Shown here: positions 2,210-24,777 of the stretch, one piece after another | Layout of the letters: the number at the start of each line of letters is the position of its first letter | Numbering within the stretch: position 1 is the first letter of the stretch | Origin: a virus | IMG/VR virus record: IMGVR_UViG_3300031857_001267 | Location: 1-25,216 of that record | Length of the DNA: 25,216 nucleotides | Reading direction: 5' to 3' (one strand) | Notes under the pieces: generated by a model | Told to the model about the DNA's origin: nothing | The model's database searches: none | Seen by the model: only the letters and a program-made list of their open reading frames with translations | Position numbers and translations under genes: made by a program

Positions 2210-5190
2210 TAGTCAACCAACATTCCGTATTTACCGCCACCGCCGCCTACTGGTGCCGTTACTTGAACAGTTGAACCATATTTTATGGCATTTAGCATTT
2301 GTGTTTTAACTTGAATTGGGTCTACATAATCGGTGTTGAAAGTCTGGTTAATAACTAATCCAGCCATAGATTTTTCTTCACCAGCGCGCCACGAAGCAAC
2401 GCTTCCATCTGCTACTACTGCTCTACTTGTACCCGTAGATGTTGCGGTTAGACCACTTGTAGTTAGTGTAGTTAATGCCGTAGTAGCAGTAGTTGTGGTA
2501 GTTCCACCGCCACCACCGCCTCCTCCACCACCCATACTGCCAACGGAAGCCATAGCCGCCTTTAATGCGTTAATAGCGGCAATAGTGGAAGCAATGGCGT
2601 TTTGAATATTGCCTAATTTTTCATTAAATTCTTTAGCCAATTCATCTAAAGTTTCAGTTAATTCTTTACGCGCCTCAGCAGTTGCTTCTGCCAAATCTTT
2701 AGCCGCTTCTGCTAACGCCTCGTTCAAATCTCTACTTGCTTCTGCCAAAGCGTTATTTAATTCTTTGTCTATCTCAGCAATACTTTCGTTATATTGCTTT
2801 TGAATTTCTGCTAATTGTTCTGCTAAATCTGCTTCTGCTTTGGCAAACGCTTCATCACGGATTTTTTCCGCTTCTGCCATTTGTTCGTTAAAATCTTTAT
2901 TTATTTCAGCCTGTCGTGCAGCATATTCTTCTGCTTGTACGGCTAAAAATTCAGTTAATTCTGCTTGCGCATCGGCGTAGGCTTTATTTAATTCTTCGGT
3001 TGCCAAACGACCGCCAGCGTTCATGGAATTGGCTAATTGGTTCAAACCATTATTGGTTTGATTTTCCATAGCAAGAAATGTTTTTTGTAATTCTGTAATA
3101 GTTTCAGGCGTTGCCTTCAAAATACTATCTGCTAATTCATTCCCAACTTCGGGTCCAGCAGATACAACTTGTTCAATAAATGTTTGGCTAAATCCAAGAC
3201 CAGCCAACTTAGATGCGTTAGCGGCTAATTGTTGTGCGCCAGCCAATTTGTTTTTAAGTGTTGATAGCAAATCATCGGCACTTCTTTTACCTGCTTCGGC
3301 AAGCCCTTTGAACAACTCGGTAACGCTAAATGAAGTGCCACTCTTATAGGCATCTCTTAGTCGGTTAATGGATTGTTGAACAATTGCTTGTAATTTTTCA
3401 GCATTAGCCTTATAAATCTCTTGAACTCTTTTAGCGTTATCTTTTTCAAGTTTTTCCAAATCATCGGCACGCTTTGTGTTCAATTTGCCCATAGTATTAT
3501 TAAATGCTTCTTGTGCCGCTTTACGCTTTTCTGCGGCTTCCTTTTCAGCCTTTAATATGCCTTCATCACGCTTCTTTTGAGCGTTTAATGTATCTTCGGC
3601 GGCTTTTTGATTTGCTTTAGCAACGGATTCATTGTAACGCTTATTAGCATCTGCTACTTTTTCATCATGAACCTTTTGCGCTTTAGCAATTGTTTCATTG
3701 TATTTCTTTTTAGCAGCCTCAACTTTTTCGTTTAAGTCTTTTACAATTTTCATGTAATCTTCGTTTTGCTTTTCAATCTTTTTCTTTTCCTCAGGCGTTA
3801 AGCCACCTTTGCTTTTACCTTTACCTGTACCTTTACCCAAATCTGGAATACCGCCATCGCCACCAAAATCTATCTTGATTGGCTTATTCAATTTATCTAA
3901 ATTACCTGCTAATTCTTTTGCTTTAGCAGATGCTTTATCCGCAAAATCGGATACGCCGTCTAAACCTTTATTAAGAATATCCAAACCTGCTTTGGCATAT
4001 TTGCCAACACCGGGCAATTTTGATAATGCGGTTAATACGCCTTTAAGTGGTGCCATAATAAATTTCAACATGGCTTCACCGACTTTACCCACAATCGGAA
4101 TTATTGAAGCAAACGCCATTAAACCAGCCTTACCAACCGCAATTACGCCTTTGCGGAAGGCTTCTGATTTATTCCATAGCAAAACAAATGCGCCTACTAA
4201 TAACATGGCGGCACTTACCACAAGTCCAATAGGGTTTAATTTCATAGCAGTATTAAGTGCTACTTGCTGACCTGTTAATAATTTAGTTACGGCGGCTTGA
4301 ATTCCAGTAACGACACTCCACGCTTTTGTTAGTGCCATTTGAACTTTCACAGTTGCGTTATATGCCGCAAGAGCAACTGTTACTGTTAAGAATATGCCGC
4401 CTAATACTTTGAACGCATCTGAGTGTCTTTTAACAAACTCAACGCCTTGATTTATCTTTTCCAACATACTTTTAAGCACGGGTAATAAAGCCGTACCAAG
4501 TGCTTGCGCGGTGTTATTAAATTGTTCTTTAACTATCTGTAATTGAACCGCAAATGTCTTTGTGGCGTTTTCTGCCTGTGTTCCAATTTTGTCATTTAAT
4601 TCGTCAAACGCTTTTGCTACTGCTTCTGCTCTTGGAATAGTGGTATCTAAAACAATACCTGCTTCCTTAAACGCTTTAGCGTTACCTGTGCTGGCTTTAG
4701 CCAAAATAGCAGATGCTTCGGTTAGTCCAATGTTCTTAGTGCGTGCTAAATCTGCTGATAGTGCTAATAGTTGTTGTGATTTCTCCAAATCACCAGTAAC
4801 ACGCAATAGATTTTCAAAACCTGCCGCCGCCGCTTCATCATCAAAACCTAATTGAACATAACTTTCGGATAATTTTTCTACTGCTAGTCTATTCTTCTCC
4901 GTATTAACCCCTGTGGCAGTCATGGTAGAACCAAGTTTTGCCATAATCTTTTCGGCTTCCATAGCCTCTTTGATACCAATAGCCGCAAAGCCAGCAAACG
5001 CCGTGCCTAAGCCAATTAAAACGCCAGTTGCTACTTTGGAAGCCTGTTCCATGCGGTTAATACCGCCGCCAGCCTTATCGGCTTCCTTCTCCATCTTTTC
5101 TAATTCGCCATTAACTTGCTTAAATTCAGCAATAGCCTTATCAGCAATTGCTTTAATTTCAATTACGGCAGGTGGAAGAAAATTAGCCAT
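2209..5190 (-). CDS. Tape measure protein
   Basis: A 993-residue protein, the longest gene here, and the ruler for tail length. At about 1.5 angstrom per helical residue it predicts a tail near 150 nm. Residues 75-245 resemble the TP901-type tape-measure core. Residues 262-282, 320-340 and 353-382 are hydrophobic helices suitable for membrane penetration during DNA entry. Residues 482-602 and 747-867 are two arrays of 11-residue coiled-coil repeats. These are followed by a run of ten glycines (887-896), a Thr-rich linker and a 70-residue C-terminal domain likely to contact the distal tail protein. Its stop overlaps the Dit start, and its ATG overlaps the stop of the preceding gene (TAATG at both ends). 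The order chaperones, completion-like protein, tape measure, Dit is close to the standard siphophage order. Confidence 0.93.
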   Translation of the reverse strand: MANFLPPAVIEIKAIADKAIAEFKQVNGELEKMEKEADKAGGGINRMEQASKVATGVLIGLGTAFAGFAAIGIKEAMEAEKIMAKLGSTMTATGVNTEKNRLAVEKLSESYVQLGFDDEAAAAGFENLLRVTGDLEKSQQLLALSADLARTKNIGLTEASAILAKASTGNAKAFKEAGIVLDTTIPRAEAVAKAFDELNDKIGTQAENATKTFAVQLQIVKEQFNNTAQALGTALLPVLKSMLEKINQGVEFVKRHSDAFKVLGGIFLTVTVALAAYNATVKVQMALTKAWSVVTGIQAAVTKLLTGQQVALNTAMKLNPIGLVVSAAMLLVGAFVLLWNKSEAFRKGVIAVGKAGLMAFASIIPIVGKVGEAMLKFIMAPLKGVLTALSKLPGVGKYAKAGLDILNKGLDGVSDFADKASAKAKELAGNLDKLNKPIKIDFGGDGGIPDLGKGTGKGKSKGGLTPEEKKKIEKQNEDYMKIVKDLNEKVEAAKKKYNETIAKAQKVHDEKVADANKRYNESVAKANQKAAEDTLNAQKKRDEGILKAEKEAAEKRKAAQEAFNNTMGKLNTKRADDLEKLEKDNAKRVQEIYKANAEKLQAIVQQSINRLRDAYKSGTSFSVTELFKGLAEAGKRSADDLLSTLKNKLAGAQQLAANASKLAGLGFSQTFIEQVVSAGPEVGNELADSILKATPETITELQKTFLAMENQTNNGLNQLANSMNAGGRLATEELNKAYADAQAELTEFLAVQAEEYAARQAEINKDFNEQMAEAEKIRDEAFAKAEADLAEQLAEIQKQYNESIAEIDKELNNALAEASRDLNEALAEAAKDLAEATAEARKELTETLDELAKEFNEKLGNIQNAIASTIAAINALKAAMASVGSMGGGGGGGGGGTTTTTATTALTTLTTSGLTATSTGTSRAVVADGSVASWRAGEEKSMAGLVINQTFNTDYVDPIQVKTQMLNAIKYGSTVQVTAPVGGGGGKYGMLVD
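2590..2952 (-). repeat. C-terminal hendecad (11-residue) coiled-coil array in tape measure
   Basis: Tape-measure residues 747-867 can be laid out as eleven consecutive 11-residue units, for example EQMAEAEKIRD, EAFAKAEADLA, EQLAEIQKQYN, ESIAEIDKELN, NALAEASRDLN. Positions 3-4 are hydrophobic/Ala and position 10 is usually an aromatic or Leu. The DNA period is 33 bp but the nucleotide copies are diverged. The acidic Ala/Glu-rich composition differs from the Lys-rich first array. Unit boundaries were drawn by eye. Confidence 0.75.
3385..3747 (-). repeat. Central hendecad (11-residue) coiled-coil array in tape measure
   Basis: Tape-measure residues 482-602 form eleven 11-residue units, including AKKKYNETIAK, AQKVHDEKVAD, ANKRYNESVAK, ANQKAAEDTLN and AQKKRDEGILK. 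The pattern is small/hydrophobic at unit position 1 and hydrophobic at position 9. An 11-over-3 periodicity gives a nearly straight or slightly right-handed coiled coil instead of the usual heptad. The array is Lys-rich, in contrast to the second array. Unit boundaries were drawn by eye. Confidence 0.75.
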
Positions 5191-5621
5191 TACTTACCAC
5201 CAACGGATAAATGCTTTGTAACGATACGCGGAGCAATAACTTTGAATTTCTTAAACGCAGGAGCCATGTATGGAAAACCTTTCACCGCAGTTGTTCCTTT
5301 CCATGACTTAGGAGAAAATTCTCCGCCTAATTCTACCGCCCTGCCGTAGATAATTGTTGGTCCCACAATAGCGGTATATTTAGCAAATCCTACTGTGCGC
5401 TTTTCGCCTCTAATGCTTCTGCGCAAATTACCAGTTCGGTTCATTGGTGGCTGACCTGCGGTTGCCTTTTGTCCCTCAGGTCGCCGACCTTTAATTTCCT
5501 CTTTTGATAACTGAATAAGCGTTACCATCATTTCATCACGGGCATTTTGCGCACCTTTGCCAATGTTATTTTCCATTGCCGTAAGTGACTGCCTAACCAG
5601 TTTAAGATTTGATGTTATCAC
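5190..5621 (-). CDS. HK97 gp10-like head-tail / tail completion protein
   Basis: A 143-residue basic protein starting at GTG (complement 5619-5621), with an AAAAGGG SD located inside the end of the frameshifted chaperone frame. The body reads as N-terminal helices, then PPMNRTGNLRRSIR, a VGPTIIYGRAVELGG strand-turn, and a KGFPYMAPAFKK segment. The TGxLRxSI ... YARxxExG ... PYMxPA pattern is characteristic of the HK97 gp10-like / minor capsid completion family that acts at the head-tail joint. Its location between the tail chaperones and the tape measure is unusual, because this family usually lies before the tail-tube gene. Start and stop both overlap neighbours, which indicates coupled translation. 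Family call fairly secure; exact ring position inferred. Confidence 0.75.
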   Translation of the reverse strand: MITSNLKLVRQSLTAMENNIGKGAQNARDEMMVTLIQLSKEEIKGRRPEGQKATAGQPPMNRTGNLRRSIRGEKRTVGFAKYTAIVGPTIIYGRAVELGGEFSPKSWKGTTAVKGFPYMAPAFKKFKVIAPRIVTKHLSVGGK

Positions 5622-6152
5622 TTTCCACCCTTTTAACAGTTGCTGATATGGCTAATAACCAATCAATTAAATAAGCAGGTTGCTCATCGGTTTCGTTTGG
5701 TGTCCAACCAAATTCTTTGGCACACAAATAATAAACCCATTCCTCATCTGGGTAATTAAATGCTTCATGCCGTTCGCCACCTTCTAATAGCCATTTTAAT
5801 CGTTGGAGCCGCCGAAAGGGCTATCAGCATTTTCCGAATTCTCTGGTGTATCCACCAACGATGGGAAAATTGCCTTTTGGAAATCTTTGCTTAAATCCGT
5901 CAAATGGTCGTAATCAGCAATATCTAATTCATCTAGCGATGAAATACGAATTGACGGAATTGGCAAATCTAATTCCCAACTCTCCACCATAATTGCCAAG
6001 ATGCCATCTGTTAGAGATAGCGCAGTCATAATGCCTTCATCTACGCCTTTTGTATTGGCATAAATTCTCTTGCGGTCTTTTTGCTTTAGTGCTTTAGGGT
6101 CGCGTAATACAACCTTTGCTCCGCTAACTGGGAGTTTTGTTTCTTTTGCCAC
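5602..6152 (-). CDS. Tail assembly chaperone GT fusion (made by -1 frameshift)
   Basis: Joining the frame of the 118-residue G protein to the -1 frame at the CCCTTTC heptamer (5814-5820) gives a predicted 183-residue fusion: 113 codons of G, then 70 codons that begin RRLQRLKWLLEG and end SDNIKS before TAA at 5602-5604. The extension is highly protein-like (EEWVYYLCAKEFGW, AYLIDWLLAISATV) and has no good start of its own. It matches the T half of lambda-like G/GT tail chaperones, which coat the tape measure and recruit tail-tube subunits. Its 3' end overlaps the next gene by 20 bases. The frameshift is inferred from sequence logic and conserved gene order. Confidence 0.82.
5796..6152 (-). CDS. 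Tail assembly chaperone G
   Basis: A 118-residue protein read from GTG at 6150-6152, preceded by GGAAGGA with five bases of spacing. An in-frame ATG at 6177-6179 would add nine residues (MEGTNGRNI), but it has no SD and its extension encodes the SD itself, so the GTG is preferred. The protein is soluble and acidic at the C-terminus (LDELDIADYDHLTDLSKDFQKAIFP). It lies between the tail-tube and tape-measure genes, the conserved place of the first tail chaperone. The slippery heptamer lies 15 bases before its stop codon, so most ribosomes would make this short form and a minority the GT fusion. Confidence 0.82.
   Translation of the reverse strand: MAKETKLPVSGAKVVLRDPKALKQKDRKRIYANTKGVDEGIMTALSLTDGILAIMVESWELDLPIPSIRISSLDELDIADYDHLTDLSKDFQKAIFPSLVDTPENSENADSPFGGSND
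5814..5820 (-). promoter_or_regulatory. -1 ribosomal frameshift heptamer CCCTTTC
   Basis: In the zero frame the codons read AGC CCT TTC GGC, so the heptamer is C CCT TTC, a perfect X XXY YYZ site. After slipping back one base the tRNAs pair with CCC and TTT and translation continues CGG CGG CTC CAA into the 70-codon T frame. No convincing downstream pseudoknot was found by eye. Confidence 0.82.
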
Positions 6153-7920: not shown

Positions 7921-8810
7921 TATCTAATCCTGCGGTACTTGTTCACCATATCCAGCGCAAGAGCAATTTCTCCGCCGTAACGATTTGCGCCTGGGGTTGG
8001 ATTGGCTTGTGGGAAAGTTGTAATGTTCATAGTCATTGAACTATCACCGCGCACTTTGATAAAGGCAGTTGTAATTAAGATACAGGCTTCCTTCAAAGCG
8101 TTAGGCAAATTGCCAATACTAGAACCAGTTGCGTGCGAATAAGTCAAAGCAGTCGTTAAAGGTACCGTTGTGGAACCGTAGGTATAAGTGCTGGCGACTG
8201 TAACGGACTCTGATGATGCGCCGTCATAGATACGCAATTTTTGATTAGGCAAAATGCCTTCGGAACGAGTAACAGTTAGGCTTGTTGCGCCAGCAGTACC
8301 ACTAGCAATTGGGTTATTTACATAACCAGCCACATATGTATATTTACAATAAACCTGTTGGCGTGGTAAGCCATAACCGCCAAATGCTAAAGGTCCCTGC
8401 GAAGAATAAGCCGTAGCAATATTGCTTAACGGAATAATAATTTGTTGTTCTTCAAACCACGACAAACTAGGGTCGCTCATGGTAATTAAATTATTTGGAT
8501 TTGTCCCATAGTTAAAATCTTCAAGCGCAATTATCGGTGTGTTATTTGGGTGTAACGCAATAAATCCATCTGGCGTAAAACGAGTGCGCTGAGTTTCCAC
8601 ATATTTTGTGGCATTAAGATTAGCGTTGAAATATTCGTCCATATAGGAAGAAGCACGAAGAATAACCTTTTCCAATTCGGCATCTTGCGCGTTAGCATTA
8701 CCGCCAATTACCAAATTGTTATAGTCAATGCTGGTTGGCGCATTTTTATATTCCGCAAGCGTTATGTATGGCGTTTCGTGAAATGTATCGGGTGTTGTTC
8801 CTACCGTCAT
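7920..8810 (-). CDS. Head-tail connector (gp6-like adaptor) with inserted beta domain
   Basis: A 296-residue protein with ATG at 8808-8810, directly following the TAA of the zinc-ribbon gene. The N-terminal part (AQDAELEKVILRASSYMDEY) and the C-terminal helices (NALKEACILITTAFIKVRG ... GEIALALDMVNKYRR) form the helical bundle of HK97 gp6-like adaptors, which dock under the portal. Between them, about residues 165-235, is a Thr/Ser-rich beta insertion with TSLTVTRSEG, KLRIYDGASSESVTV and STTVPLTTALTYSHATG, likely projecting from the neck. The length exceeds the usual 100-200 residues of the family because of this insert. The gene lies between capsid and tail genes as expected. Confidence 0.75.
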   Translation of the reverse strand: MTVGTTPDTFHETPYITLAEYKNAPTSIDYNNLVIGGNANAQDAELEKVILRASSYMDEYFNANLNATKYVETQRTRFTPDGFIALHPNNTPIIALEDFNYGTNPNNLITMSDPSLSWFEEQQIIIPLSNIATAYSSQGPLAFGGYGLPRQQVYCKYTYVAGYVNNPIASGTAGATSLTVTRSEGILPNQKLRIYDGASSESVTVASTYTYGSTTVPLTTALTYSHATGSSIGNLPNALKEACILITTAFIKVRGDSSMTMNITTFPQANPTPGANRYGGEIALALDMVNKYRRIR

Positions 8811-18310: not shown

Positions 18311-18852
18311 CTAGTCACCTCTGGGCTAACTACAACTTGTCCTTGCGCAACGCGAGTAACAATACCACCTGCGCTTGTTAATTCTAGGTCGTAATAGTAT
18401 GTGCCTTCATCTATTGCGGTAGTTTGTAACGCCGTAGCATGAACATCTATTTGCCCCGTTAATGCCGTAAGCGTTATTCCGCTTCCCGTAGTTAAAGACA
18501 ACACCGCGTTTGGGCTATCTGGCAAAGAGCGTACTTGTAATGCCGCCGTATATCCCGTCAAATTAACTGGCGCATATGCCAAACCGCCAGAGATATAAGT
18601 TCCCGTTGTTGGATTTGTAATTGTGAAATTGCTATTTGTCGTACTGGCAATTGTAAAGTTTTGAAGATTATATTGCGATGGATTAACACCGCTTATAGAT
18701 GCCTTTTGACTTGGTGTAAAGCCATTAACCGCAGTTACAGTAATTGTTGTGCCATTAGCAGTAATATTTGTAATTTCTGCTGGCTGATTGTAAATAAAAG
18801 TAATATACCAATCCGCGCCTTGGTCTATCGTGGTGTTATATGAAACTGCCAT
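18307..18852 (-). CDS. LtfC/BppU-like adhesin with inserted Ig-like beta domain
   Basis: A 181-residue protein whose ATG at 18852 overlaps the TerL stop (TAATG). The framework, MAVSYNTTIDQGADWYITFI ... LTGYTAALQVRSLPDSPNAV ... GTYYYDLELTSAGGIVTRVA followed by QGQVVVSPEVTR, matches the beta-sandwich family found in siphophage adhesion and head-side proteins. Residues 27-95 are an insert, NITANGTTITVTAVNGFTPS to NFTITNPTTGTYISGGLA, a phage-type beta repeat unit. It has no enzymatic motif. It begins the adhesin cassette immediately after TerL. The family resemblance is from memory of pattern and not from a search. Confidence 0.7.
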   Translation of the reverse strand: MAVSYNTTIDQGADWYITFIYNQPAEITNITANGTTITVTAVNGFTPSQKASISGVNPSQYNLQNFTIASTTNSNFTITNPTTGTYISGGLAYAPVNLTGYTAALQVRSLPDSPNAVLSLTTGSGITLTALTGQIDVHATALQTTAIDEGTYYYDLELTSAGGIVTRVAQGQVVVSPEVTR

Positions 18853-20198
18853 TATTCTCCCAAACTAGCGCCGCAGGATACACAAACTCTTGCCGTTTTA
18901 GGTGACGGCATACCGCACTTAGCACATAATAATGCCATATTTGCTAAGGCAATCATACTACTTCCGCCCTGATTTAATTCAGTTAATGCCCAAACCAAAG
19001 CATCAAGTCTGTCGGGACTTTCGTTAGATATTGGCGTCCATTCGCACATCTGCGTTTCTAATTCGGCTAAATAACCAACATGATGCACTTTGCCTTGCTC
19101 ATATAAAGCACTAATCGGTTCAGCGCGTAATTGTTTGCCTCTAGTGGCAGTTACTTTTTTTGTAGCCACACTTCTATCAACTTGTTGTAATGTTAATATC
19201 ACCATATCGCCACCGTTGTTAGTTTCAGCAACTATCTTGTCGGCTTTTAATTCGTGATATAGGTTTACCGCTTGTCTTGCCCACGCATCAGGACTGGCGC
19301 GTAACGATTTATCCGATAACACATAATATTCGCCACTACTGGTAATTCCAGCGGCAACTATGCCTGTTTCATCGCTATTCTCATTGGCAGTTACGGCAGG
19401 GTCTAAACCGATAACAATGCGTACTAATGGTGGCGCACTAGCCACTCTGGCGTTATCTATCATTTCGCGAGTCCATAGTGCGCCTTCCACATTATCCAAT
19501 ATTTCGCCATAAAGTTCTTGCCTACCCAAGCGCGTGTTTTCGTATCGTGCCTTAAATTCTGCTAATGCTGATGGAGCAAGATTTGCCGCGTTATCAAAAG
19601 TTGAACCACGCACGACACGCACGCCATCACGCGTTAGCAACTCCTTTACTAACTTAATCGGCTTTGGCGTAGTTGTAACGATAGTTTGTGGAAATGTGCC
19701 TAAACGCAAACCAAATTGATACTGGTCCCATGCCTCTGGATACTTAAATGCGGCTAACTCATCAAACCAACCGCCATGATGCTGAGGTCCACGCAAACGC
19801 TCTGGTTCTTCGCCTGAGAATAACTTTATGCGCGTGCCATTGGTTAAAAATATTTCACCGATGCTTCGGTTGTAATCTTTCAAAGTGCCATACTCACGCA
19901 AGATTTGAACAATACCGCTATTGCCTTCTGCGCAAGTATCACGCGCATCTCCGTAAGTAGGCGCTACGATAGCCCAACGAGTAAGAGGATAACTAGATGC
20001 CTGATACGCCAGCCACTCTGCCGCCATGCGTGTCTTGCCCGCACCGCGACCAGCAAGATATAGCCAAGTCTGCCATGTGTTATCTTCAGTCGGTAACTGT
20101 TCCTGTCGGGCTAATTGGTGTGTCCAGCGCACTCTGCGGCTTGCTATTAAGGAGAGAGACAAGTCTGGCGACTTCGGCATCAATTGAATTTCGGTCAT
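18852..20198 (-). CDS. terL: Terminase large subunit with C-terminal zinc ribbon
   Basis: A 448-residue DNA-packaging motor that cuts concatemers and pumps DNA through the portal. The ATPase has Walker A AGRGAGKT (residues 49-56) and Walker B GWFDE (143-147), with a coupling TTTP motif (175-178). The RNase H-like nuclease has Asp266 in GLDPAVT, Glu325 in VAET and Asp399 in SPDRLDALVWAL. After the nuclease there is a 24-residue tail with C425-x2-C428 and C439-x2-C442, a zinc ribbon not usual in TerL. The ATG at 20198 has GAGGT eight bases upstream and gives the full adenine-binding N-terminus; the next Met (residue 7) has no SD. It overlaps TerS by 113 bases and its stop overlaps the next start. 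Confidence 0.95.
   Translation of the reverse strand: MTEIQLMPKSPDLSLSLIASRRVRWTHQLARQEQLPTEDNTWQTWLYLAGRGAGKTRMAAEWLAYQASSYPLTRWAIVAPTYGDARDTCAEGNSGIVQILREYGTLKDYNRSIGEIFLTNGTRIKLFSGEEPERLRGPQHHGGWFDELAAFKYPEAWDQYQFGLRLGTFPQTIVTTTPKPIKLVKELLTRDGVRVVRGSTFDNAANLAPSALAEFKARYENTRLGRQELYGEILDNVEGALWTREMIDNARVASAPPLVRIVIGLDPAVTANENSDETGIVAAGITSSGEYYVLSDKSLRASPDAWARQAVNLYHELKADKIVAETNNGGDMVILTLQQVDRSVATKKVTATRGKQLRAEPISALYEQGKVHHVGYLAELETQMCEWTPISNESPDRLDALVWALTELNQGGSSMIALANMALLCAKCGMPSPKTARVCVSCGASLGE
18855..18926 (-). other. Four-cysteine zinc ribbon at the end of TerL
   Basis: TerL residues 425-448 read CAKCGMPSP then KTARVCVSCGASLGE. The spacing CxxC-x10-CxxC is that of a zinc ribbon, attached after the end of the nuclease fold by a short Ala/Met linker. 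Confidence 0.75.
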
Positions 20199-20562
20199 GA
20201 ATATTTACCTCTACCTGCGATTTAACTGGAACATCTAGTCCGAGTAACCGCGCTCGCCTTTCCATAATTTTGATTAAAGCCAATATGGCACGCGCACGCT
20301 CTTGCGCATCTGCGCCATTAACTACATCGCCCCATATAGCCGCCTGAGCAATATCTAGACGGTCTATCTCGGCATTTCTAATCGCAACTACATCTTCAAC
20401 AATAATGCGCCGACACGCCGACTGATACGCCTTATGCGCACCACTAGCGTTGGCATATCCCACGCGGTCTGCGATTAGGTCAAATGTTAATCCGCCACGC
20501 CGTAATTCCAGCACTTTCTTCTCGCGCTCAATTACTGCTGGGTCAGATTTACCTTTACCCAT
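20086..20562 (-). CDS. terS: Terminase small subunit
   Basis: A 158-residue protein with a strong GGGAGG SD and ATG 20562. Residues 10-50 form a helix-turn-helix (VLELRRGGLTFDLIADRVGY followed by ANASGAHKAYQSA), the DNA-binding end that recognises the packaging site. Residues 55-112 are long helices for ring oligomerisation (IAQAAIWGDVVNGADAQERA and RAILALIKIMERRARLLG), and the last 45 residues, rich in Ser/Pro, would contact TerL. The length and the adjacent TerL agree with the family. The 3' 113 bases also encode the TerL N-terminus in another frame. The preceding 40 bases contain a possible promoter. Confidence 0.85.
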   Translation of the reverse strand: MGKGKSDPAVIEREKKVLELRRGGLTFDLIADRVGYANASGAHKAYQSACRRIIVEDVVAIRNAEIDRLDIAQAAIWGDVVNGADAQERARAILALIKIMERRARLLGLDVPVKSQVEVNIHDRNSIDAEVARLVSLLNSKPQSALDTPISPTGTVTD

Positions 20563-20601: not shown

Positions 20602-20775
20602 TTAAATACTCCACCAACCTTGCTTACTCGCTTTACCGCTACTTATCCATTCTCGGTGTAATCGGTGTTGTTCTTGCCAATTCGTTTCGTGCGTACATCG
20701 TGCGCACATAGGACATATGGCATACCCCGTATTGCGGTAGATATGCTCGCACTTTAATTGCTCGGCTTTGGACAT
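20602..20775 (-). CDS. Small Cys/His zinc-binding protein (WWSI family-like)
   Basis: A 57-residue ORF, ATG 20773-20775 to TAA 20602-20604. It reads MSKAEQLKCEHIYRNTGYAI, then CPMCARCTHETNWQEQHRLH, ending GWWSI. The C-x-H plus CPMC-x2-C-x-H set could bind zinc, and similar short proteins with THE..W..QH and a terminal WWSI are common in phage genomes, as far as I recall. Its start overlaps the ABC-GNAT stop by 22 bases. A second frame in the same place (20639-20851) lacks any such signature and is treated as a shadow. Function unknown; it may be a regulatory or DNA-binding accessory. Confidence 0.75.
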   Translation of the reverse strand: MSKAEQLKCEHIYRNTGYAICPMCARCTHETNWQEQHRLHREWISSGKASKQGWWSI

Positions 20776-21884
20776 AACACTTTAGCAATATCTTCATTCG
20801 GCGCACCTGCGTATCTAAATCCTGTCGTGATGCGACTGCGTGATAAGCCAAGCCGACCAGTAATAGACGATGTCTTGCCTCTTTGGGCGACCCGTGAAGG
20901 TTGTCTAATCATTTCCCAATTGGGCGACTTATTCAACGCCCTAACGCGTGCTGGGTGACTTGTGGTCGTATATGTAGAGAGCCCCTGCGCCTTCAATCCA
21001 GCGCAAATAGCATCTACGAAGCGACCACCTAAGCCAATACCCTGATAATCAGGCAAAACTACTGTTCTGCTTATCCTACGAGCTGCTTTCACATTGGCAT
21101 TGATAAGTGGCAATATGGCAGTCATGACGGCTGGCTGGTCGTTAATTAGCCCAACATATATTTGCGCCGATTTGTTCAAACTGTCGCTTAAATAGTGATG
21201 TTTAGCGAAGATTTGCCACGCCGAATAGTTTGCCCAAATGACTTCGCAATTGACTTGTGGGCGGGGTTGAACCGACCCCCAAGTGAAGGCACCTAAGTGC
21301 GGCTGATAAATCCAGTCAGGTTGTAACCATTCTTCAATATCGTAGTGGCACGATACTGCGACAAACTTTTGCTTACGCGCTCTAACAGTTTTAGCAATAG
21401 CGGCTGAACCGATTTGCGCAACTGTACGGTCAATGACCGATGTAAATTCATCTACAACGGCTATATCTTTGCTTTCTGCCAATACGCGTGCCATAGCAAC
21501 ACGAAACTTCTCGCCGTTGCTGAGATTTTCATATGGGCGCAACCACGCTGGCGGTGAAGAAAAGCCAACGCTAGACAGCAACTCGGTAATGTCTTTAATT
21601 GGCATCTCTTTGGGAAAATCGTCAATAACGGCGTTGTTAGCACCCCAAGTCATGCCTTCTGCTGATGCCAATTCTTTGCCAAACATATTCTTGGCAATGG
21701 TTGTTTTACCAGCACCCGAAGGACCCACAATTAAGCCAATATTCCAATCGCGTGTACCTAAATCGGGAATGTTATTAGGGACTTCGGTAGTGGATATTTT
21801 GGCGGCTTGTAAATCAAATATGCCTTCTAACTGCATCACGCGTGGTGTGCGGTTAATCTCTGTCGTTAATTTAATTGTGTTCAT
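20754..21884 (-). CDS. Soluble ABC-type ATPase fused to a GNAT-like acyltransferase domain
   Basis: A 376-residue protein from ATG 21884, which overlaps the upstream 48-residue ORF by 14 bases; an in-frame ATG at 21914 adds ten residues and is less likely. The ATPase has Walker A GPSGAGKT (54-61), ABC signature LSNGEKFRVAMARVLAE (from 121), Walker B IAVVDE (141-146) and switch His180 in VAVSCHYD. No transmembrane helices are present and no permease is near, so it is not a transporter. The C-terminal half, about residues 213-320, is GNAT-like: AKHHYLS, VGLINDQPAVMTAILPL, then VVLPDYQGIGLGGRFVDA as the cofactor loop. The HHYLS start recalls Mom-like modification enzymes but this is a weak comparison. 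Its context with ParB-like suggests action on DNA or on a host protein. Confidence 0.82.
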   Translation of the reverse strand: MNTIKLTTEINRTPRVMQLEGIFDLQAAKISTTEVPNNIPDLGTRDWNIGLIVGPSGAGKTTIAKNMFGKELASAEGMTWGANNAVIDDFPKEMPIKDITELLSSVGFSSPPAWLRPYENLSNGEKFRVAMARVLAESKDIAVVDEFTSVIDRTVAQIGSAAIAKTVRARKQKFVAVSCHYDIEEWLQPDWIYQPHLGAFTWGSVQPRPQVNCEVIWANYSAWQIFAKHHYLSDSLNKSAQIYVGLINDQPAVMTAILPLINANVKAARRISRTVVLPDYQGIGLGGRFVDAICAGLKAQGLSTYTTTSHPARVRALNKSPNWEMIRQPSRVAQRGKTSSITGRLGLSRSRITTGFRYAGAPNEDIAKVLCPKPSN

Positions 21885-22017
21885 GGTCGTGTGCGTGTGC
21901 CAACGCATGAACATCTACGACAAAGCCTAGAAAAGCGCGTGCTTCTCCGACATTGATGATTTCATTTTTAACTAAGTCAATTAACTCTTGACCCGTTAGC
22001 GTTACTTGTATATTCAT
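21871..22017 (-). CDS. Small His-rich protein (48 residues, hypothetical)
   Basis: ATG 22015-22017, with AAAGG six bases upstream, runs to TAA 21871-21873. The protein begins MNIQVTLTGQELIDLVKNEI and ends HALAHAHDHEHN, a metal-binding-like His cluster. A central helix (INVGEARAFLGFVVDVH) follows the first strand. It is coupled to the ABC-GNAT gene, overlapping it by 14 bases. A real SD, its fit between two genes and the protein-like composition support it. Its function is unknown; a metal-binding partner of the ATPase-acyltransferase is only a guess. Confidence 0.72.
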   Translation of the reverse strand: MNIQVTLTGQELIDLVKNEIINVGEARAFLGFVVDVHALAHAHDHEHN

Positions 22018-22030
22018 TTGTGCCTTTCTG

Positions 22031-22564
22031 TTAAATAACGATTGCTCTTACTTTTAATCCTTCTTGCGATAAGCGAAGCAATAAAGCAGTTTGCTCGTTT
22101 TCATCTTCGCACTCAATAACTACCTCGTAACGCTCTGCGATTTCTTTAATGCTAGTATCTATTTCTTCACGGGTTTTCAAATCAAAGTCTTTGAAGCCCA
22201 ATTCACCAACATTCCAATCCTCTAGTTTCAATTCACGCAATTGGCTTAATAACACTTCGCTATCCCACGATGCCAATTCAGCCGTGCGATTATCTGCGAG
22301 CGCGTAGGCTTTAATTGTGTCGCTATCCCAGTCAGCAGGAACGCGTACAACTGCCAAGCCTTTCCACCCGATTTGTTTAGCCGCTTCTAATGTTCCATTA
22401 CCAGCAACGACAACATTATTTTGCGTTATAACGACAGGTTTGCGTTGCCCAAATGTTTGTAACGATTTAGCAATAGCATCTATGTTCTTTTTGCTATGCG
22501 TGCGTGCGTTATTTTCATCAGGCACTAAATCATCTATCGGGATAATTTCCGTGTTTAATTCCAT
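22031..22564 (-). CDS. ParB-like protein
   Basis: A 177-residue protein, ATG 22564 with an AGGAAAGG SD. Residues 1-95 are a ParB/sulfiredoxin-type N-terminal domain: IPIDDLVPDENNARTHSKKN, IDAIAKSLQTFGQRKPVVIT, VVVAGNGTLEAAKQIGWKGL and AYALADNRTAELASWD. There is no ParB-type central helix-turn-helix and no methyltransferase. The last 30 residues, YEVVIECEDENEQTALLLRL then SQEGLKVRAIVI, form a small alpha/beta unit seen on some phage ParB-like proteins. It heads the accessory cluster, separated from the HTH gene by a hairpin. Phage ParB-like proteins can act as nucleases, NTPases or partners of DNA-modification genes; which applies here cannot be told. Confidence 0.8.
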   Translation of the reverse strand: MELNTEIIPIDDLVPDENNARTHSKKNIDAIAKSLQTFGQRKPVVITQNNVVVAGNGTLEAAKQIGWKGLAVVRVPADWDSDTIKAYALADNRTAELASWDSEVLLSQLRELKLEDWNVGELGFKDFDLKTREEIDTSIKEIAERYEVVIECEDENEQTALLLRLSQEGLKVRAIVI

Positions 22565-24462: not shown

Positions 24463-24777
24463 TTAGAGAGTACGGGTTTTTTCCGCCTCTTTTTGTTCGT
24501 AGTTTTCTGCGTGTTTATATTTTGAACGCTCCCGTAATCGGTGAGCCATTTCCTCGCTAGATGTAGATGTTTGCTGGATATGCGCCCGTTCAGGGTCACA
24601 TACGGAGCAAAATTGCACTCCATCATACCAAGTTTCAACCACAATTTTTTGCCCTTGTTTAATTTTTTCTTGCTTATCTACATAACGAATATGAATAAAC
24701 CCCTTTTCACACCCTTCGGTGTGCGTACAACGGCAGTTAATTCTTCCGCAGTGCATCTGATTATTGCCTAATAACAT
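24463..24777 (-). CDS. Zinc-finger-like phage protein (hypothetical)
   Basis: A 104-residue protein with GGGAG five bases before ATG 24777, which overlaps the upstream stop as TAATG. The first half has two cysteine sets, MHCGRINCRCTHTEGCEKGF (C10, C15, C17 and C23) and FCSVCDPERA (C57 and C60), a knuckle likely to hold zinc. Residues 26-55 include the strand GQKIVVETWYDGV. The C-terminal 40 residues are a charged helix (AHRLRERSKYKHAENYEQKE). Proteins with CxH...GC...W and a later C-x2-C are common in phage early regions and have no assigned role. No catalytic motif was found. Confidence 0.7.
   Translation of the reverse strand: MLLGNNQMHCGRINCRCTHTEGCEKGFIHIRYVDKQEKIKQGQKIVVETWYDGVQFCSVCDPERAHIQQTSTSSEEMAHRLRERSKYKHAENYEQKEAEKTRTL

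Follow-up and report, generated by a model that had tools for sequence, protein, structure and literature searches.

Two conserved genes before the terminase genes

The window analysed here is the whole stretch of 25,216 bases of the IMG/VR virus record IMGVR_UViG_3300031857_001267, and it is phage DNA. On its minus strand, just before the terminase genes, lies a gene for a ParB-like protein of 177 amino acids (22031-22564), a putative adaptor or targeting protein, followed by a gene for a protein of 376 amino acids (20754-21884) in which an ABC ATPase is joined to a GNAT acyltransferase domain (hereafter ABC-GNAT). Two small open reading frames (ORFs) accompany them on the same strand. The first (48 amino acids, 21871-22017), with a histidine-rich end (HALAHAHDHEHN), is spaced 13 bp from the ParB-like gene and overlaps the ABC-GNAT start by 14 bp; the second (57 amino acids, 20602-20775) is rich in cysteine (CPMCARC) and overlaps ABC-GNAT by 22 bp. 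Starting from an upstream ATG in the same frame, at 21914, ABC-GNAT would be 10 residues longer (386), but its relatives begin at the internal ATG at 21884.

An earlier reading made from the sequence alone had considered the four frames as one cluster. All four are present, but the conserved unit is formed only by the ParB-like gene and ABC-GNAT, and the two small ORFs are lineage-specific. In L007, whose DNA is 82-90% identical in the aligned parts, precise gaps of 150 bp and 159 bp correspond to the 48- and 57-residue ORFs, and the same two junctions present gaps of variable length in other relatives, so that both ORFs are accessory insertions. The 48-residue ORF gave no family match in the profile scans and its matches were limited to the same sequence, while the 57-residue ORF was found in the same sequence and in one weaker relative (L016), and matched DUF2387 with 17.1 bits, under the cut-off of 25.9. 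Therefore, the histidine-rich and cysteine-rich ORFs are ruled out as members of the unit, and their features are unfit to explain it.

The ABC-GNAT protein matches phrog_11143, a family of no annotated function, from residue 13 to 374 of 386 (positions 2-354 of 357; E 2.8e-106). Its AlphaFold model (mc322b89d97f2), built from 39 sequences, has a mean pLDDT of 87.8 and a pTM of 0.80. The first half is an ABC nucleotide-binding domain (residues 1-205; 21270-21884, minus strand) that matches ABC_tran (E 6.9e-10) and aligns with ABC ATPases at Z up to 14.9 (VIA-align, 7w7c). The GNAT-like character proposed for the second half (residues 209-362; 20799-21260, minus strand) is borne out by its alignment to RimI 5isv (residues 212-362, Z 13.6) and 1y9k (Z 13.4), and Acetyltransf_1/7 match 36 of the 39 aligned members of the family.

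The ABC motifs had been described as intact, and they are: Walker A GPSGAGKT (residues 54-61; 21702-21725, minus strand), Walker B VVDEF and the CH of the H-loop are present, with LSNGE as a variant of the LSGGQ signature within a family pattern LSxGE. Conservation was scored over 39 aligned relatives. In the ABC domain G54, G57, G59, K60, S122, G124, D145, E146, D152 (D-loop) and H180 (H-loop) are invariant. The same holds in the GNAT domain for R273, V275, P278, D279, Q281, G282 and G284, of which the last three belong to the CoA-binding motif QGIGLG (residues 281-286; 21027-21044, minus strand; general form QGxGxG), and for W223, F226, H230 and Y231, the last two in the HHYL stretch remarked on in the sequence-only reading. 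Between the two domains, EWLQPDW is invariant as well. Since these key residues are invariant, the protein looks able to hydrolyse ATP and to bind acyl-CoA; the check for a cofactor site covered sequence motif and fold, and both the CoA motif and the GNAT fold are there.

The annotation of Oenococcus phage unk162 splits the ABC and GNAT domains into two genes that overlap by 4 bp, and in Streptococcus phages they are likewise annotated apart. ABC transporters have a membrane-spanning partner, whereas the modelled window fusion consists only of ABC and GNAT; as already remarked in the sequence-only reading, a permease is absent, with no match to one among the ten neighbouring proteins scanned. 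The matches of ABC-GNAT to mad3 and mad8 of PADLOC were discarded, as they rest on the ATPase part only. A literature search for COG2401, reportedly an ABC ATPase-acetyltransferase fusion, turned up nothing.

Linkage with ParB and the retained tail

Relatives of ABC-GNAT are present in 75 public phage records, 45 of which cover at least 80% of its length, as well as in many viral contigs and in bacterial genomes, where terminase and other phage genes are often their neighbours. To count the linkage, we took 235 non-redundant loci of ABC-GNAT, each preceded by 700 bp or more of sequence. A ParB gene, or in a few cases only its C-terminal tail, lies within 600 bp upstream in 215 of them, and in 5 of the 235 the ParB protein, its tail and ABC-GNAT are fused in a single frame (the fusion loci are L057, L060, L067, L199, L123 and L230, one of them uncounted because it has too little upstream sequence). 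The linkage between both genes, which had been set beforehand as a point where the proposal of a base-modifying unit could fail, is conserved. At L126, L129, L135, L141, L143 and L146, mostly from Nonomuraea genomes, no ParB was detected within 400 bp upstream of ABC-GNAT. Among viral loci, 47 of 57 have the large terminase gene (TerL) downstream on the same strand and no more than 3 kb away, as do 33 of 64 loci from bacterial genomes, and these terminases belong to several groups.

The ParB partner is composed of a ParB core (residues 1 to about 132 in the window) followed by some 45 C-terminal residues whose sequence pattern looks beta-alpha-beta. In the window this tail (RYEVVIECEDENEQTALLLRLSQEGLKVRAIVI) occupies residues 133-177 (22034-22168, minus strand; tail HMM E 5.8e-22). 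The whole protein matches phrog_620 (ParB-like, E 1e-39) and phrog_498 (ParB-DNA methyltransferase, E 2.6e-34), its N-terminal part matches MTase_II of PADLOC (E 5.4e-19), and Pfam ParB_N is reached with 20.5 bits, under the cut-off of 26.3.

The beta-alpha-beta tail was recognised in 211 of the 215 ParB partners, and three of the four exceptions still resemble it by eye. Furthermore, it persists without the ParB core upstream of ABC-GNAT in Pseudomonas phage Komp_PAO1_1 (L090, 49 aa) and in Porphyromonas phages (L091, 42 aa), as genes that overlap the ABC-GNAT start and that both match phrog_28816, a family of 54 aa. Because such bare-tail genes occur where the core is missing, the tail, and not the ParB core, is the more tightly retained partner of ABC-GNAT. 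The 42-residue gene of the Porphyromonas phage (L091 4888-5016) is listed as an "acr candidate"; a partner of ABC-GNAT is more likely than an anti-CRISPR.

Other genes are found in the neighbourhood of this unit. Directly after ABC-GNAT, overlapping its end, three unrelated phages carry a formyltransferase gene (Formyl_trans_N, PF00551; phrog_9240): Komp_PAO1_1 (L090 6068-6682), Porphyromonas phage008a (L091 6143-6613) and Gordonia phage BiggityBass (L097 1823-2470), where it is annotated as "tRNA-methyltransferase". This gene was not found beside the window unit; where present, it hints that the transferred group undergoes a second step. Genes with an ASCH domain are neighbours of ABC-GNAT on the same strand in Streptococcus phages, and lie downstream on the opposite strand in Nonomuraea; such domains are said to be readers of modified bases, a proposal by Iyer and colleagues.

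Two further arrangements were observed. Rhizobium phage RHEph10 and Salmonella phage SSU5 (L099 5016-5660, L100 4980-5618) encode an ABC-only relative of about 210 aa, without GNAT, beside two ParB-like genes, and so the ABC part may function without GNAT or with a different enzyme. Aeromonas phage PX29 (L092) carries both an ABC-GNAT and, elsewhere, a Mom-like gene (4965-6143 and 8112-8600), with a HAD_SAK_2 protein of RNA-repair type downstream of the ABC-GNAT.

A ParB core common to several DNA-modifying enzymes

The core of the ParB partner is also found with other enzymes. We searched with the ParB core of Pseudoalteromonas phage SL25, without its tail, and recovered 71 non-redundant viral loci, chosen regardless of tail or enzyme. 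The core is fused to a domain with methyltransferase motifs in 47 of them (the four tested were confirmed as N6_N4_Mtase), is accompanied by ABC-GNAT in 6, by Mom in 4 and by a separate methyltransferase motif in 2; the remaining 12 were others or cut. The fusions represented by phrog_498 thus have the same ParB core as the window, but the methyltransferase is in the same chain and no beta-alpha-beta tail was called. Other partners are a C5-cytosine methyltransferase (L513; L525 encodes a near-identical start), a separate D12 adenine methyltransferase (L514) and, in L534 (1336-3424), a TAGT glycosyltransferase and a Tet_JBP oxygenase, followed by apparent terminase genes. Both matches in L534 are just under the Pfam cut-offs, and the PHROG of the oxygenase is named "queuine tRNA-ribosyltransferase". 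Records matching the ParB core number 479 in the phage collection, and many of them are annotated as DNA methyltransferase. Apparent terminase genes, recognised by eye, lie just downstream in L512, L513, L525, L534, L536, L562 and L581. As methyltransferases and the TET and glycosyltransferase genes accompany the same core in this place, the position before the terminase genes looks like a slot for DNA-modifying enzymes, with ABC-GNAT as a recurrent occupant of predicted chemistry. In L581 itself (3001-5080), the ParB core precedes a methyltransferase of FkbM type and a gene that by eye is like the oxygenase gene of L534, a possible further modification pathway.

A further comparison is with Mom of phage Mu (PF25680, 8bv8). 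Mom and ABC-GNAT both belong to the GNAT superfamily, and relatives of Mom also have a ParB-core gene upstream: it was present in 42 of 45 non-redundant Mom loci. The tail differs according to the enzyme. In the Mom partners it is a zinc-knuckle-like CxxC tail in 41 of 42 cases and in none a beta-alpha-beta, and no CxxC tail was observed among the 215 partners of ABC-GNAT; the ParB partners of C5-methyltransferases have a CxxC tail too. In contrast, the cores do not sort by enzyme. A Mom-type and an ABC-GNAT-type core can be 74% identical, and a tree of 183 cores has 29 changes of enzyme label, of which well-supported branches force at least 6, an exact number being uncertain with so few columns. 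Even so, repeated exchange of enzymes among ParB cores is required.

One exchange could be located. Arthrobacter phages EastWest (ParB and ABC-GNAT) and StevieBAY (ParB and Mom) share the same locus, with identities of 63% in the gene before ParB, 53% in the ParB core, 83% in a helix-turn-helix (HTH) gene and 46% in the sliding clamp. The interval between ParB and the HTH gene holds ABC-GNAT plus two small genes in EastWest, and one small gene plus Mom in StevieBAY. Their ParB tails differ as the tail rule expects. Microbacterium phage Pickles13 also pairs Mom with a ParB protein that has a CxxC tail. A second candidate, between Pseudomonas phages Komp_PAO1_1 (ABC-GNAT) and GEC_PNG14 (Mom), was dropped because they had no common proteins in the stretches compared.

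Predicted DNA modification and its alternatives

The conserved linkage with ParB across unrelated phages, the natural fusions, a core that also accompanies DNA methyltransferases, TET/glycosyltransferase genes and Mom, and the replacement by Mom at the same locus all argue for base modification. With a probability of roughly three in four, we consider the unit to be a two-gene phage DNA-modification module in which ABC-GNAT would most likely be an ATP-driven DNA-base acyltransferase. The base-modification function suggested in the sequence-only reading gains support in this way. The idea of base acylation by this family predates our analysis: according to PMC7824862, Iyer et al. 2013 predicted that a GNAT with an ABC ATPase puts an uncharacterised acyl modification on a DNA base, and PMC7824862 gives Tenacibaculum phage pT24 as an example. 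The ABC-GNAT of pT24 is a full-length relative of the window protein (35.5% identity), and so it is the same family. ParB does not occur in the main text of PMC7824862, and in the literature consulted we found no mention of the ParB linkage, the fusions, the tail rule, the stand-alone tails, the formyltransferase or the exchange with Mom, although Iyer et al. 2013 may note the linkage.

In the mechanism that we envisage, the ParB core would bind or slide on phage DNA, and the beta-alpha-beta tail, judging from its co-occurrence, its fusions and its existence as a separate gene, would recruit ABC-GNAT. The conserved motifs and the general biology of ABC proteins suggest that ATP-bound ABC domains could pair, clamp or remodel the DNA and present a base to the GNAT site. 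There, the intact CoA motif and the fold would allow an acyl group to be moved from acyl-CoA onto an amino group of the base; gating of the acyltransferase by ATP hydrolysis, as proposed from the sequence, is plausible. The place just before the terminase genes would fit a late action that marks virion DNA shortly before packaging, and the mark may shield it from host nucleases or defences. In some phages the formyltransferase might further decorate the same group. The broader picture, a platform where the tail decides which of several interchangeable enzymes a ParB core serves and ABC-GNAT is an ATP clamp writing a new acyl mark, sometimes formylated later, is more tentative, and we give it somewhat less than an even chance.

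Several observations weigh against base acylation by a ParB-guided module. The ParB partner is missing in five carriers (pT24, PX29, vB_VmeM-32, P12024S and TR-TP2), and no nucleoside composition was found for phages that carry ABC-GNAT. The closest solved GNAT folds, among those listed, are protein or small-molecule acetyltransferases. Comparison of ABC-GNAT with Mom by hhalign gave probabilities of 0.7 and 0.5 percent (with 39 and 131 GNAT domains). The AlphaFold model of a natural fusion, with a pTM of 0.57, gave no firm docking position for the tail (the Foldseek matches listed for it are ABC-domain proteins). Finally, the ParB protein beside the D12 methyltransferase of L514 ends in a tail-like stretch for which the HMM made no call, and the tail rule may have exceptions.

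The resemblance to Mom proposed in the sequence-only reading is, by itself, a weak argument. The best local alignment sets HHYL against the KHYS of Mom, within a profile comparison that is not significant. The Mom model PF25680 is absent from the matches of the window ABC-GNAT and from the 25 commonest families of its 39 relatives, and reaches 14-15 bits, under the 27.1 needed, within ABC-GNAT of Pasteurella phage Pmp13 and Leptospira phage LE4. LP65 Orf128, a relative of Mom, is among the BFVD fold neighbours of ABC-GNAT (E 5.8e-5); structure 8bv8 does not appear among the fold matches listed, which are filled by the ABC domain, and this is no evidence against a likeness. Unlike ABC-GNAT, Mom has neither an ABC domain nor the QGxGxG motif, and its ELxR and YQA motifs are missing from ABC-GNAT. 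With a profile comparison that is not significant and PF25680 below its cut-off, ABC-GNAT is not assigned to the Mom family by sequence; it seems to be a different enzyme that serves a similar purpose.

The alternative that survives best, although we regard it as unlikely, is a protein acyltransferase, which would acetylate a host or phage protein such as RNA polymerase, a nucleoid protein or the terminase, with ParB bringing the enzyme to DNA-bound targets. RimI, the closest solved GNAT listed, is a protein acetyltransferase, the adjoining terminase offers a candidate substrate, and phage GNATs acting on host RNA polymerase, such as Rac of phiKMV, are cited in PMC7824862. However, the enzymes that elsewhere accompany this ParB core modify DNA, ABC-GNAT exchanges with Mom, and the variety of the adjacent terminases means that no single conserved protein substrate exists there. 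Clearly less probable is a packaging or segregation factor, in which ParB and an SMC-like ABC ATPase would organise DNA for the terminase and the GNAT would be secondary. The position of the unit and the ABC-only relatives with ParB genes in the Rhizobium and SSU5-like phages agree with such a role, but the GNAT motifs are invariant, the gene is located after tail genes in a Gam-carrying Pseudomonas phage and in Porphyromonas phages, and the same place before the terminase is occupied by methyltransferases, Mom and TET enzymes.

TmcA is a P-loop ATPase joined to a GNAT that, driven by ATP, acetylates the amino group of a base, a cytidine of tRNA(Met). A TmcA-like modification of host or phage tRNA has the least chance of all, because the likeness of TmcA (2zpa, rank 23 of the Foldseek matches) to ABC-GNAT is limited to the two-domain plan and, although tRNA genes lie near some carriers, the ParB partner points to DNA and the ATPase, which aligns to ABC domains (Z 14.9) and has its own signature and H-loop, is not of the helicase type of TmcA.

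Neighbouring genes and meaning for phage biology

Downstream of the unit, the window encodes on its minus strand a probable small terminase subunit (20086-20562), assigned by its position, and the large subunit TerL (18852-20198; Terminase_6N E 2.9e-26, Terminase_6C E 4.4e-18). The small-subunit ORF is kept between ABC-GNAT and TerL in relatives; it matches phrog_645, whose name in PHROGs, "Rnase E", is doubtful given this position. TerL ends in a four-cysteine zinc ribbon (residues 425-446, CAKCGMPSPKTARVCVSCG) that is kept in all seven relatives compared and that zinc-ribbon models match only below threshold. A cysteine-rich ORF of 104 aa at 24463-24777 on the minus strand (CGRINCRC...CSVCDPE) may bind metal. 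No ParA ATPase was matched among the ten neighbouring proteins scanned.

If the proposed function is true, a widespread enzyme family would become directly testable, with the tail rule predicting the matching ParB protein, and EastWest and StevieBAY would represent a natural exchange of enzymes at one locus. The product would be a new DNA base, and the protein possibly a new tool enzyme. Many phage genes annotated as "ParB-like partition protein" or "nuclease" would then be recast as adaptors of DNA-modifying enzymes, and short hypothetical ORFs such as those of phrog_28816, the "acr candidate" included, would be stand-alone adaptor tails.

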